A stretch of DNA of 64,000 nucleotides from the NCBI GenBank assembly GCA_018335035.1, contig JAGXKT010000008.1, positions 1 to 64,000 of the forward strand, read 5' to 3'. The stretch is from Phycisphaerae bacterium (lineage in GTDB: Bacteria; Planctomycetota; Phycisphaerae; SM23-33). Position numbers and translations under genes: made by a program. The notes beneath the pieces are model-generated. The model saw only the letters and a list, made by a program, of their open reading frames with translations, had not been told where the DNA came from and did not search any database. Below, piece by piece: positions 25,097 to 32,036 of this stretch; within the stretch, counting starts at the first letter, position 1; each line of letters begins with the position of its first letter.

Positions 25097-26066
25097 GCAG
25101 ATCGTCGAGCGATTGGCAGCGGCCGATTCGCTCCTGCTCGTGACGCATGCCCGCTCGGACGGTGACGCCCTGGGCAGCATCCTCGCGCTGGCGCGTGCGG
25201 CCGAGGGCGCCGGAAAAACCGCGCGCCTGCTCGTGCCCGATCAGCCCCCGCCGCGATACGGTTTTCTGCTTGGCGAGCGGCCGGTCGCCTCGGGCGGGCA
25301 GTTTGCCGCTCTGGGCGACGCTGCCGATCTCGTCGTCATCGTCGATACGTGCGCGCTGGGGCAGTTGGAGGGGTTGGAAGACGCCATCGCTGCCCGGCGC
25401 GACAAGATCGTCGTGGTCGACCACCACGCCACGGCCGACGACATCGCCTCGGTTCGCTGGATGGACACCGCCGCCGCGGCCGCCGGCGTGATGGTCTCCG
25501 AATTGCTCGATGCGCTGGACTGGCCCGTGGACCTGCACACCGCCGTCGCGCTGACCACGGCGGTCACGACGGACACGGGCTGGCTGCGCTACGCCAACAC
25601 GGACGGCCGGGCGCTGCGCGCCGTGTCACGCTGGCTGGACCAGGGCGTGCGTCCGGATGAGCTGTTCCGCGAGATCTACCAGTCGGATCGCCCCGAGCGG
25701 ATCGCCTTGCTGGCGCGGACGCTGGCGGGCCTGCGCCTTTACGCAGGCGGGCGCCTGGCCGTGATGGTCATCCGCGACGCCGACTTCGCCGCGACGGGCG
25801 CGCGGGCCGACGAAACGGAGAACTTCGTCAACGAGGCCATGCGGCTGGGCTCTGTTGACACGGCTGTGACGTTGGTGGAAAACGGCGCATGCGTCCGCGT
25901 GAGCTTGCGCAGCCGCGGCGCGATTGACGTGTCCGAAATCGCCCAGCGCTTCGGCGGCGGGGGCCACAGCCGGGCGGCCGGGCTGCGACAGCACGACCCG
26001 ATCGACCAACTCGCCTCGCAGCTCATCGAGGCCTGCACGACCGCGCTCGACGACGCGCGCGAATAA
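25065..26066 (+). CDS. DHH/DHHA1 phosphoesterase (NrnA-like oligoribonuclease)
   Basis: 333 residues if started at GTG 25065, which has AAAGGAC 8 bp upstream; a TTG at 25047 would add six residues. Metal-binding motifs: HARSDGDALGS, IVDTCAL, VVVDHHATADD, and the DHHA1 end GGGGHSRAAGL. Family members degrade nano-RNA and cyclic-dinucleotide products, or 3'-phosphoadenosine phosphate. The start lies within the end of ribF (32 bp overlap). Confidence 0.9.
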   Translation: MCGTSANNAFEQIVERLAAADSLLLVTHARSDGDALGSILALARAAEGAGKTARLLVPDQPPPRYGFLLGERPVASGGQFAALGDAADLVVIVDTCALGQLEGLEDAIAARRDKIVVVDHHATADDIASVRWMDTAAAAAGVMVSELLDALDWPVDLHTAVALTTAVTTDTGWLRYANTDGRALRAVSRWLDQGVRPDELFREIYQSDRPERIALLARTLAGLRLYAGGRLAVMVIRDADFAATGARADETENFVNEAMRLGSVDTAVTLVENGACVRVSLRSRGAIDVSEIAQRFGGGGHSRAAGLRQHDPIDQLASQLIEACTTALDDARE

Positions 26067-26172
26067 ATCTCGCGCCTGCCGCGGCGCGAGATTCGCCCCG
26101 TCCTGCGGGCGCCAACGTGCCTGAGCGGGCACCGCTACGCGGCGTCGCGGCGGAAAAAGCTCGCCCGGCGGC

Positions 26173-26201
26173 TTGACGAACCCGCGTCCGGCCGCTACAG
26201 T
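26173..26201 (+). promoter_or_regulatory. Sigma-70-type promoter of the cobalamin riboswitch transcript
   Basis: TTGACG at 26173-26178 and TACAGT at 26196-26201 are separated by 17 bp. The predicted start, about 26208, falls exactly at the first base of the riboswitch P1 stem, which supports both calls. Confidence 0.65.
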
Positions 26202-26208
26202 ACCACAC

Positions 26209-26409
26209 GTTGCAGGTGGCTCGGCGAACGCCGGGCTGACAAAAGGGAAGGCCGTGAGAATCGGCCGCGGACGCGCCGCTGTAACCGGCGACGAACGCTG
26301 CAAAAGGCCACTGACCTCGTGCGTAGCGAGGTTGGGAAGGCGCAGCCAGTAGGATGATCCCGACGACGTCGGGGTCGCGACCCGGAAGCCAGAAGACCTG
26401 ACCTGCAAT
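26209..26409 (+). ncRNA. Cobalamin (adenosylcobalamin) riboswitch
   Basis: The conserved elements occur in order: the P1 strand TTGCAGGT, AAAAGGGAAG (26241-26250), GTGAGAATC (26254-26262), CGCCGCTGTAA, GCCACTG (26307-26313), GGGAAGG (26334-26340), CAGTAGGATGA and the 3' GCCAGAAGACCTG (26388-26400), closed by ACCTGCAAT. This is the B12 aptamer core. An intrinsic terminator follows 65 bases later, so cobalamin binding probably promotes transcription stop. The first gene downstream is the PEP-CTERM protein at 26770, not a familiar B12 transport or synthesis gene. Confidence 0.93.
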
Positions 26410-26473
26410 CGACCTGGAACGGCCATCGCGGTACGTGGCCGGTCGGGACGATGCAGCCAACGGTTCGCAATCG

Positions 26474-26510
26474 ACCCCGGCCCCTCGACCGCGAGGGCGC
26501 CGGGGTTTTT
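26474..26510 (+). terminator. Intrinsic terminator downstream of the B12 riboswitch
   Basis: ACCCCGGC (26474-26481) pairs with GCCGGGGT (26499-26506), extended by CCCTCG (82-87) with CGAGGG (92-97), and is followed by a run of five T. Placed after the aptamer and before any gene, it is the likely expression platform; the antiterminator partner is not obvious by eye. Confidence 0.8.
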
Positions 26511-26769
26511 GTGTGGCCGCTCGCGGACCGGCGGCTGGTACTCGCCCTCCGCTTCGGTCGTCTTCGCACATTCCCCTCAGGTCGTCGGCCGGTATGCCTT
26601 GCGCCCGGGCAGACCGGCCAACGCTCGATGGGCTCGCGGAAATGTGTAAGGAGATCGCCCCCATGCCGTAACCGACCGGATGTGCGCTCGACGTGTTGGA
26701 TGGCTGTTTGCCGAAGGCGGCGGACCCCGCAGGGCTGCCGCAAGCTCTCAAAACATAGAGGAGAACGCA

Positions 26770-27330
26770 ATGCTCACAGGACGCTCCATTGCCGTGTGTC
26801 TGGCCGTCGCGCTGTGCGGGACGGCAGCCACGGCCGCAACCCATGACTTCAACGGAACCCCGGTGGATATCGAATACTGGTGCGGGTACGGATCCTCGAC
26901 GAGCGGCACGAACGAGGCCGTCTGCGTCGTGGACTACGCCGATGGGAACTCGTTCGCCTTCGGATACAAGTGGCCGGGCGACGAGACCCGCACCGGTTAC
27001 GACATGCTGGCCGCGGCCGATCTCGGCGGCGCCCTCGAGGTGGACCTCTCCTGGTGGGACGACATGGGCGCGTTTATCGACGCTATTGAATACGACGGCA
27101 ACACCACGACGAACTGGTGGGCCTATTGGACGTCCGCGGACGGGCAGAGCTGGGATCCCCCTACGGTCGGCATGTCCGGCCGGACGCTCAGCGACGGGGA
27201 TTGGGATGGCTGGAGCGCCGCGGCCGATTTCGGCAGCGAGCCACCGGCGGTTCCGGCGCCGGAGCCGGCCTCGATGGGGTTGTTCCTGTTGGCGGGCGTG
27301 GGATTGCTGAGACGGCGCCACCGACGCTAG
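26770..27330 (+). CDS. PEP-CTERM exported protein under B12 riboswitch control
   Basis: 186 residues. GAGGAG precedes the ATG. A signal peptide ([17 protein letters not shown]) is followed by an about 130-residue Trp/Tyr/Gly-rich domain ([62 protein letters not shown]). It ends with the exosortase sorting signal: VPAPEPAS, a hydrophobic helix and RRRHRR. It should be exported, cut by an exosortase and left at the cell surface. I do not know the domain's function. Because the only upstream control is a cobalamin riboswitch, a surface role in cobalamin or cobalt capture is a reasonable inference, not a demonstrated one. Confidence 0.88.
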
Positions 27331-27389
27331 ATGGAGCGGTCCGGCCGGGCGGATCGGCGCGTCCGCCCGGCGCGGGCCGATCGACGCAC

Positions 27390-28166
27390 ATGAGAGACAG
27401 GTGTGGACAAGCCGCTGGATTTACGCTGCTCGAACTGTTGGTCGTCATCGCCATCATCGCAGCGCTGGTCAGCATCCTGATGCCCTCGCTGGAGCAGGCC
27501 CGCGTTCTGGCCCGGCGCACGCAGTGCCTGGCGAATCTGAGCAGTCTCGGGCGGACCATGGCGTCCTACCATGCTGATAACGGAGAGACGTTCTGGCCTT
27601 GTGTGGTGTACGACCACCCCGAGCCCGGGACGCACACCTACTTCTGGGGTACGGCGACGGTCCCCGTTGATCGTGCGCCCAGCGGGCTGATGCAATACTG
27701 CGATGGCAAAGTGGGCTACCTGCTGTGCCCGTCGATGCGTTGGGGTCAGTACGTCCCCCAGGGCGGCGTGGACGAACCGACCACCACCTACGGGTACAAC
27801 GCGTGGTGTCTCGATCCGGCCTACTGGGGGCGGCGGGACGACGAGGGAGATCCGCTTTCGCGCAAGCGCGCGCACGACTTGAATCGACCGTCCGACCTGT
27901 TCGTCTTCGCCGACGCGGCGATGTACTGGTCGCCGGCCGGCGTGCCCATTTTTCAGAACAGCACGTCGCTCGACCCACCCACGCTCGGCAGCTGGGGGGC
28001 GAACGATACGCCGACGACGCACTTCCGCCATGACGGGCGCGCCGGCGCGCTATGCGCCGACGGGCACGCGGCGACATTCGACCCCGCCGGCGGGCGTATG
28101 CCTGTGCCCGAACGCAACCTTGGTTTTGTCGGAGAGACCAATGTGCCGCATTACGGTCAGGATTAG
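27390..28166 (+). CDS. Pseudopilin-like protein with H-X9-DG C-terminal domain
   Basis: 258 residues. The type IV prepilin-like start is [20 protein letters not shown] with the cleavage Gly before Phe and Glu at position 5. The end carries the H-X9-DG signature (His214, then Asp224-Gly225), a family expanded in Planctomycetota and Lentisphaerota. Such proteins resemble major pseudopilins of type II secretion-like systems; individual roles are mostly unknown. The start lacks a strong ribosome site. It follows the PEP-CTERM gene by 59 bp and overlaps the lipoprotein gene by 26 bp. Confidence 0.85.
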
Positions 28167-28542
28167 CTTTGTCTTCGGGGTGGCGATGCTGCTGGGCGGC
28201 TGTGGCCGGGAGTACGGGCACGAACGCCTGGACGACGCCTCGGAGCCGTCGCGTCGTGTCCGCGAGATGATCGCGGCGCTGCGGTCGGCCGGCACGGAGA
28301 ACCTCGCTGTGGTCTATCACGCTCAGTGTGTGGCCGAACTGAGTGAGGACCGCGCCGACCGCCTGCGCACGGCGCTGCGCCGTATTGCTCAAGCCGACGC
28401 CGCTGAACTGCGCAAACTCGATGCCTACGGGGGCGATGTACTTCGTGCGTCGATCGAGCTTCAAAGCGGTCAGCGCCGCAAGACAGTGTTTCTGCTTCTG
28501 GTGGCTAAGGGTGACAAGCTTCTGTGGGCGGGCGTGAACTGA
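28141..28542 (+). CDS. Small putative lipoprotein
   Basis: 133 residues. ATG at 28141 with GGAGAG just upstream. A short hydrophobic leader ends in LLGGC, a plausible lipobox with the lipidated Cys near residue 21. The rest is a charged helical domain with repeated alanine-arginine helices and no recognised motif. It overlaps the pseudopilin gene, so the two are probably translated together. The function is unknown. Confidence 0.7.
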
Positions 28543-30497: not shown

Positions 30498-30617
30498 CAC
30501 CGGCAGGCCGCGGATGGCGTAGAGGGCTTCCGCGTGTGCCGCTGGAGCGTCTGCATGGGCCAAACGGCAGGCCGTAATGTCTGAGTCATCTGTGGATAAC
30601 GTTGTTGTGAGCGTCCC

Positions 30618-32036
30618 ATGAGCACGACAGAAACGCCGACAGCGAAAGAGCGCATGGCCATCGAGCGGGCGGCGATGCCTGAGCAGCCCGCCGAGGAGCG
30701 CGTGCGGAACTTCAACGAGGTCAACCTCGGTCTGGTAGAGGAGGTCGCCGTGCGCGAGGCACAGCGGTGCCTCCAATGCAAGAATCGCCCGTGCGTTCAG
30801 GGCTGCCCGGTGGGGCTGCGGATTCCGGAGTTCCTGGAGAAGATCGCCGCGCGGGATTTTGCAGCCGCGGCGGAGATTCTGCAGGCCGACAACGCTCTTC
30901 CCGCCACGACCGGTCGCGTCTGCCCGCAGGAGGAGCAGTGCGAGCGGTTGTGCGTGCGTGGCAAGCGGGGCGAGCCGGTGGCGATCGGCTGGTTGGAGCG
31001 GTTCGTCGCCGACTGGATGGCCGAGCACGCCACGGCGCCGGCGTCGAAGGCCGATCCCAGCGGCTTCCGCGTGGCGGTGGTCGGCTCGGGTCCGGGCGGT
31101 CTGACGGCTGCGGGCGAACTGGCGCTTCGCGGGCACGAGGTGACGATCTTCGAGGCCCTGCACGACGCCGGCGGCGTATTGCGCTACGGCATACCGGAGT
31201 TTCGTCTTCCCAAGCGGATCATCGACCGCGAGGTGGCGAACCTCGAGGCGCTCGGGGTCGCGCTTGAGACGAACGTCGTTGTCGGGCGGACGCTGACAAT
31301 CGGGCAGATCCGCGAGCAGTTTGACGCGTGCTTCATCGCCAACGGCGCAGGCCTGCCGCGATTCTGCAACATCCCCGGCGAGAACCTCAAGGGCGTCTAC
31401 TCGGCCAACGAGTACCTGACGCGCGTTAACCTGATGGGCGCGTACCGCTACGAGTCGCGGACGCCGGTGGCGCGCGGGACGACAACGGTGGTCTTCGGCG
31501 GGGGCAACACGGCGATGGACTCGGTCCGGACGGCGCGGCGACTGGGCAGCGAGCGGGCGATCATCGCCTACCGCCGCGGTCGCGAGGAGATGCCCGCCCG
31601 CGCCGAGGAGGTCAAGCACGCCCAGGAGGAGGGCATCGAGTTCATGTTCCTGGTCAGCCCTACGGAGCTTCTCGGCGATGAGGACGGCTGGCTGCGTGCC
31701 GCGCGGTTGCAACGGATGGAGCTGGGCGAACCAGACGCGTCCGGGCGGCGGCGCCCCGTCCCCGTCGACGGCAGCGAGTTCGAACTGCCCTGCCAGGTGG
31801 CCGTTGCGGCCATCGGAACCAAGGCCAATCCGCTACTGACCGGTACGGCGCCGAACCTGCAACTCAACAAATGGGGCAACATCGAGACGAACGAGCGGCA
31901 CCAAACGTCGCTTCCGGACGTCTTTGCCGGCGGGGACATCGTTCGCGGCGGGGCGACGGTGATCCTGGCGATGGGCGACGGAAAGGCGGCCGCACGCGAG
32001 ATCGACGACTTCCTGCGAGAGGGCGCTTCGGCATAG
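30618..32036 (+). CDS. gltA: NfnB/GltA-like NADPH-dependent oxidoreductase large subunit
   Basis: 472 residues. The N-terminal iron-sulfur domain carries CLQCKNRPCVQGCPVG and VCPQEEQCERLCVRG for two [4Fe-4S] clusters; then an FAD domain (VAVVGSGPGGLTAAGELALR, YGIPEFRLPK) and an NADPH domain (VVFGGGNTAMDSVRTARRLG), ending DVFAGGDIVRGGATVILAMGDGK. This is the glutamate synthase small-subunit family, and beside the NfnA-like gene it most likely forms Nfn rather than glutamate synthase. No glutamate synthase large subunit is in the window. The two genes are 120 bp apart. Confidence 0.9.
   Translation: MSTTETPTAKERMAIERAAMPEQPAEERVRNFNEVNLGLVEEVAVREAQRCLQCKNRPCVQGCPVGLRIPEFLEKIAARDFAAAAEILQADNALPATTGRVCPQEEQCERLCVRGKRGEPVAIGWLERFVADWMAEHATAPASKADPSGFRVAVVGSGPGGLTAAGELALRGHEVTIFEALHDAGGVLRYGIPEFRLPKRIIDREVANLEALGVALETNVVVGRTLTIGQIREQFDACFIANGAGLPRFCNIPGENLKGVYSANEYLTRVNLMGAYRYESRTPVARGTTTVVFGGGNTAMDSVRTARRLGSERAIIAYRRGREEMPARAEEVKHAQEEGIEFMFLVSPTELLGDEDGWLRAARLQRMELGEPDASGRRRPVPVDGSEFELPCQVAVAAIGTKANPLLTGTAPNLQLNKWGNIETNERHQTSLPDVFAGGDIVRGGATVILAMGDGKAAAREIDDFLREGASA

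Follow-up and report, generated by a model that had tools for sequence, protein, structure and literature searches.

What does a cobalamin riboswitch control when the gene behind it encodes a PEP-CTERM protein? In a 64,000-nt stretch of DNA from a Phycisphaerae bacterium (contig JAGXKT010000008.1, assembly GCA_018335035.1; hereafter the window), such a gene follows a B12 riboswitch. A sequence-only reading had predicted that its product is made when cobalamin is scarce and may serve as a surface corrinoid- or cobalt-capture protein of unknown type. Our analysis indicates, with a probability of roughly 0.8, that the gene opens a B12-repressed surface B12-capture operon.

Architecture of the riboswitch operon

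The promoter scan, cmscan and folding agreed that a promoter, a complete cobalamin aptamer and a terminator stand in series before the PEP-CTERM gene, as had been proposed (Table 1). The promoter is the sole promoter-like site in the scanned region. At 66 homologous aptamer sites, a promoter scoring at least 9/12 lies upstream in 41, compared to 3.4% of shuffles, and in most of the promoter-bearing sites the -10 box ends about 5 nt past the Rfam start. This conserved position suggests that transcription begins around the first base of helix P1 of the aptamer.

The aptamer scores 91.8 bits against a cut-off of 31.5 (model positions 1-189 of 189, E 1.8e-21) and is both the only Rfam match in the window and the only RF00174 aptamer in the genome (2.74 Mb, 96.8% complete). 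Further downstream, GACCCCGGCCCCTCGACCGCGAGGGCGCCGGGGTT followed by TTTGTG folds into a near-perfect long stem; a generic terminator scanner did not detect this hairpin. Among the relatives' sites, a terminator-like hairpin is found within 150 nt of the aptamer in 41/66, compared to 9/66 in a control interval. The aptamer would bind cobalamin and switch the operon OFF.

The sequence-only reading had also asked whether another gene or promoter intervenes, and within 26515-26770, between the terminator and the ORF, we found no convincing example of either. Two candidate ORFs, one antisense (26023-27321, - strand) and one in an overlapping frame (26451-26846), were rejected because they lack third-position GC bias.

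Table 1. Features of the operon and its leader, in window coordinates
Feature	Position	Strand	Basis
Sigma-70-type promoter, TTGACG-N17-TACAGT	26173-26201	+	Promoter scan and comparison with 66 homologous sites
Full-length cobalamin riboswitch aptamer, RF00174	26197-26420	+	cmscan
Intrinsic terminator, expression platform in cis: GC-rich hairpin, then TTTTTGTG	26473-26515	+	Folding
PEP-CTERM protein, 186 aa (gene 1)	26770-27330	+	ORF, profile searches, structure model
Signal peptide of PEP-CTERM protein	about residues 1-22
Trp/Tyr-rich transcobalamin-beta-like domain of PEP-CTERM protein	about residues 25-157, nt 26842-27240		Predicted model
PEP-CTERM tail	residues 163-186, nt 27256-27327
Strong intergenic hairpin lacking a T run, separating genes 1 and 2	27337-27380	+	-41.3 kcal/mol, z -2.5
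Pseudopilin; prepilin leader G|FTLLE	27390-28166	+	Profile searches
Small putative lipoprotein, LLGGC box	28141-28542	+	Start overlaps pilin stop

The first ORF is preceded by a ribosome-binding site (GGAG, 26760-26763), and its GC content by codon position (0.60/0.57/0.84), usual for coding sequence here, supports it as coding. The C-terminal tail scores 25.4 bits against TIGR02595 (cut-off 16) and 20.1 against Pfam PF07589, slightly below the cut-off of 20.7. The protein has the layout of a PEP-CTERM substrate, with an N-terminal signal and a C-terminal PEP motif, hydrophobic helix and basic tail, and the terminal helix is visible in the predicted model. The TIGR02595 match and the codon-position bias confirm the proposed PEP-CTERM gene behind the riboswitch, and we infer display of its product on the cell surface.

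The operon extends beyond what was first noted, with a pseudopilin gene and a lipoprotein gene following the PEP-CTERM gene. The hairpin between the first two genes may be an mRNA stabiliser or attenuator and possibly sets the PEP-CTERM:pilin expression ratio. The pseudopilin carries a class III leader and N-terminal helix (PF07963, 24 bits, cut-off 21.2; TIGR02532, 23.7 bits, cut-off 16.3). Its predicted model (pLDDT 80) contains the usual helix and a C-terminal domain, for which there was no PDB match; the fold search returned weak pilin matches only. No family or PDB match was obtained for the lipoprotein, and similar small proteins occupy the third place in three relatives (G010, G011 and G033).

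Upstream of the operon lie a ribF-like gene and an NrnA-like gene. A flagellar cluster with FlgK/FlgL/FlgG/FlgI/FliF/FliG/FliI-like ORFs, recognized by eye, occupies window positions 37000-63400 and is unrelated to the operon.

Predicted fold of the PEP-CTERM protein

An AlphaFold model built with 22 family members reached a pLDDT of 86.8 and a pTM of 0.76. In a Foldseek search against the PDB, the matches at ranks 1-19 (probability 0.99-1.00) are exclusively of the transcobalamin-type beta domain, namely a DUF4430 protein, transcobalamin, intrinsic factor and haptocorrin, and the probability falls to 0.14 at rank 20. The bacterial DUF4430 protein 3u7z has a TM score by target of 0.76, and the human transcobalamin beta domain with cyanocobalamin (5np4) has 0.67, with the whole beta domain covered; 5no0, the same human domain without cyanocobalamin, is also among the top 19. 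TM by query length is modest, about 0.4, because the query contains the signal and tail helices. A viral fold library, searched as a contrast, gave no comparable block of matches. The predicted beta-grasp elements are strands 48-56 and 60-68, helix 76-85, and strands 90-96 and 100-108; the helix after strand 2 and the hairpin insert seen in the model are the marks of the transcobalamin-like clade.

Sequence comparison is less outspoken. With the domain as query, a Pfam search found no family and a PDB sequence search no meaningful match; the best of the latter, 8s6c, was set aside, as its similarity lies mainly in its PEP-CTERM tail. None of the 22 family members matched PF14478 (DUF4430) at E <= 1. 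By HHalign, the enlarged family aligned to Planctomycetota DUF4430 with a score of 28.0 (P 2e-4, 92 colinear columns), compared to a maximum of 18.5 for 200 column-shuffled nulls and 9 for reversed profiles. As PF14478 is silent even at an E of 1, homology rests on the predicted structure together with this modest profile match.

In the predicted model, the domain adopts the B12-binding beta-domain fold known from transcobalamin and intrinsic factor. By fold and HHalign, the protein appears to be a distant relative of DUF4430, outside the group filed as PF14478. The capture protein need not be called of unknown type, since the Foldseek matches, with weaker support from HHalign, allow it to be named transcobalamin-beta-like. 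We note that true DUF4430 proteins occur in other Planctomycetota (L183-L192, e.g., family f61), and one genome (G101) has at least four tandem DUF4430 copies.

Linkage to B12 riboswitches across genomes

RF00174 is present in 55/60 related genomes. We took the DNA behind 66 aptamers of these relatives and typed the genes into families: family A is the PEP-CTERM family of the window protein, and B, C and D are other PEP-CTERM families obtained by clustering. Across the 60 whole genomes, the family A profile gave 22 near full-length matches scoring over 120 bits and a further one of 120 bits; every one lies on the contig of an aptamer, just downstream of RF00174. Most of the weaker matches come from PEP-CTERM tails.

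Each family profile was trained on the same loci that it describes, and domain A alone was tested on independent genomes. As the full family A profile was derived from its own loci, we repeated the search with a tail-less core profile on 392 genomes of the phylum, which yielded 23 loci outside the training set. RF00174 is over threshold at 16 of these, within the flank taken in 15 and slightly further upstream in one. Five more have sub-threshold cobalamin-clan matches directly upstream on the same strand (E 4e-5, 6e-4, 0.002, 0.02 and 0.05); of the remaining two, one is marginal (E 0.75) and one is without an aptamer match. In a separate genome collection, 5/5 domain-matching loci have an aptamer. 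The search for the same domain behind cobalamin aptamers elsewhere, which had been put forward as a check, was answered positively by the 60 relatives and by 16/23 independent loci.

The pilin shows a similar linkage. Its profile gave 36 strong, near full-length matches (at least 162 bits) in 40 genomes, about one per genome; G019 has two strong matches and two riboswitch loci. An aptamer precedes 32/36, and three others lie at contig ends. In G014, the genes ahead of the pilin are a propeller gene and a family-C-like one, and the contig begins just before them. Paralogues score at most 146 bits, compared to mostly 160-385 for the B12-linked pilin. Judged by these profile matches, the pilin forms a distinct family, present in single copy and linked to B12 loci.

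An interchangeable slot for putative binders

The other PEP-CTERM families behind the aptamers resemble further kinds of B12 binder. Family B is DUF4465 (Pfam E about 1e-52), shown to bind B12 in work that includes a member from Mucisphaera calidilacus (Phycisphaerales) (PMC13398666). Family C, which is BtuH-like, matches residues 394-498 of 8BLW (E 2.3e-5), the BtuB1G1 complex, in which the C-terminal extension of BtuG1 is homologous to the B12 binder BtuH2. Family D comprises propeller-like proteins, of which one matches SMP-30/NHL weakly.

Within the 66 riboswitch loci, A occurs in 25, B in 8, D in 7 and C in 38; A, B and D are never together in one locus, and C accompanies most. At least one binder family is present in 52/66, the pilin in 48/66, and both, with the binder first, in 45/66. 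This gene content suggests that transcobalamin-like, DUF4465, BtuH-like and propeller types share one operon slot with the same pilin.

In 11/66 loci, which have neither binder nor pilin, the riboswitch stands before something else or the contig ends. Several of these precede cobalamin-synthesis-looking genes, one is near a TonB receptor, one is at a contig edge, and some precede a protein of about 517 aa that belongs to no known family. At L080, L088 and L089 (G006, G025 and G055), the riboswitch stands directly before this protein, which ends in ...AYLWDGW...; G006 has no strong pilin match.

The arrangement also varies in other ways. At L076 (G046:C51:30148-30358 and 30525-30727), tandem cobalamin aptamers precede one operon of BtuH-like and pilin genes, possibly a two-input or sharper switch. 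At L051/L090 (G038:C44:40508-40993), divergent cobalamin riboswitches have a BtuH-like PEP-CTERM gene on one side and the pilin on the other, so that the split binder and pilin both remain under B12 control. At L045 (G042:C35:253556-254677), the pilin comes straight after the riboswitch, and no binder gene was detected.

Proposed operation and known systems

The promoter, aptamer, terminator, operon order, class-wide riboswitch linkage, and the exosortase and BtuFCD-type genes are computational results. The genome carrying the window operon (G000) encodes an exosortase (PF09721, E 1.2e-52), as do all of the genomes tested (21/21). It also has a BtuF-BtuD-BtuC-type cluster away from the operon and a MetH activation-domain fragment, and GATase_3 gave no match over the cut-off there; together, these fit a B12 user that relies on import rather than de novo synthesis. 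In G003, G005, G008, G010, G011, G035 and G038, BtuF-type binding-protein genes lie about 6 kb or less from the riboswitch operon.

When cobalamin (adenosyl- or other) is plentiful, the nascent leader would fold round the ligand, the terminator would form and transcription would stop; when B12 is scarce, polymerase would pass the terminator into the three genes. The first product would be exported, processed by the exosortase/PEP-CTERM system and shown on the cell surface, where its transcobalamin-beta-like domain would probably bind corrinoids. The co-made pseudopilin may be a dedicated partner: it could present the binder, aid its export or build a short pseudopilus that might help B12 to reach or cross the outer membrane. 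The role of the pilin in B12 capture is the part that we infer above all. BtuF-BtuCD, encoded elsewhere in the genome, would then import B12 through the inner membrane.

Like the beta domains of transcobalamin, intrinsic factor and haptocorrin and like DUF4430 (PF14478), the window protein is secreted and shares the predicted fold over the whole domain. Unlike them, it has no alpha/alpha toroid partner, carries a PEP-CTERM tail, falls outside PF14478, and is linked to a B12 riboswitch as well as to a pilin. Transcobalamin encloses B12 with two domains, whereas the window protein has the beta-like one only, which counts against the B12-capture reading. The operon also recalls Bacteroides BtuG, BtuH and BtuJ (DUF4465). 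These are accessory B12 binders of the cell surface, encoded in loci that B12 riboswitches control, and DUF4465, BtuH-like and propeller families also occur in the sister operons. In Bacteroides, however, these are lipoproteins coupled to BtuB, whereas here PEP-CTERM proteins are coupled to a pilin, the window locus has no TonB receptor, and its binder is of the transcobalamin type rather than DUF4465, BtuH or BtuG.

The full-length aptamer and terminator platform are as in other RF00174 riboswitches; the regulated genes, a PEP-CTERM binder and a pseudopilin, are not the usual targets. The pseudopilin shares the prepilin leader, hydrophobic helix and RHxG...ADGHA motif of type II secretion/type IV pseudopilins with DUF1559-like bodies and differs from them in belonging to a B12-linked family, present in single copy, that has a C-terminal motif of its own, and in having a C-terminal domain without a PDB match. 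What had looked like a departure from the rule that B12 riboswitches control transport is better described as a new form of transport control.

Within the SLBB superfamily, Burroughs et al. (2007) noted a transcobalamin-like clade that is present in planctomycetes and for which they predicted binding of B12; their paper mentions neither a riboswitch (0 occurrences) nor a pilin link (PMC1796856). Our literature search found no paper combining Planctomycetes and a cobalamin riboswitch. One item combining a cobalamin riboswitch with PEP-CTERM was set aside, being, to judge from its title and abstract, a study of the ecology of a denitrifying reactor.

Pairing of binder and pilin is conserved across the class Phycisphaerae and looks like B12 capture outside the TonB/BtuB arrangement. 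It would amount to a class-wide module for acquiring B12 in bacteria most of which appear to be without the textbook outer-membrane B12 receptor, and it brings to light a dedicated B12-regulated pseudopilin of no known function. It further suggests that the fold of an animal B12 carrier is used on planctomycete surfaces under direct B12-riboswitch control, with relatives of four B12-binder types united in one interchangeable operon slot.

Alternative explanations and the outer-membrane step

That the aptamer stands beside an unrelated gene by chance might be entertained from a single genome; given that the arrangement recurs in tens of genera with a conserved promoter position, we regard this as negligible. 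These genomes contain many PEP-CTERM and pseudopilin genes, and the operon could make a B12-independent substitute or a general surface or matrix component whose domain does not touch B12. This is quite improbable, as the predicted fold matches B12-binding domains only, the slot is common to families known to bind B12, and the pilin is distinct from its paralogues. Somewhat less improbable, though still unlikely, is binding of another ligand of the superfamily (cobinamide or an incomplete corrinoid, free cobalt, or another tetrapyrrole) instead of complete cobamides. The superfamily has diverse ligands (Burroughs et al. 2007, PMC1796856), and 3u7z is titled a putative metal-binding protein; the riboswitch, however, links expression to cobalamin, and the other binders of the slot come from families known to bind B12. 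Of the predicted corrinoid or cobalt capture, the corrinoid part is favored by the predicted fold, the riboswitch linkage and the shared slot, while nothing supports cobalt-only capture, which we do not favor. Expression under cobalamin scarcity for surface corrinoid capture is well supported as the best reading of the riboswitch linkage, the predicted fold and the presence of DUF4465 in the slot.

Granting B12 capture at the surface, two proposals bear on the outer-membrane step. No BtuB TonB-dependent receptor is found in the window operon, and a TonB plug domain is absent in 15/21 relatives, including genomes with the same pilin operon. By analogy with pilus-driven DNA uptake, a dedicated B12-repressed pseudopilus and PEP-CTERM binders of transcobalamin, BtuJ, BtuH or propeller type might replace BtuB in Phycisphaerae without TonB receptors, a proposal that we consider rather unlikely. 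Nearly even odds attach to the pilin and lipoprotein being secretion or assembly helpers, as in type II secretion-like PEP-CTERM export, with B12 entering through an unlinked BtuB. The relatives without any TonB plug speak against such helpers, whereas G000 has three TonB-dependent receptors with BtuB/Cir-like plugs, which makes an unlinked BtuB possible there. The helper role is also favored by G001, where a TonB-receptor plug follows closely behind a second B12 riboswitch on one contig (G001:C38:1436-2349). The other B12 riboswitch of G001 controls a binder/pilin operon, and the TonB and binder/pilin routes may coexist in this genome.
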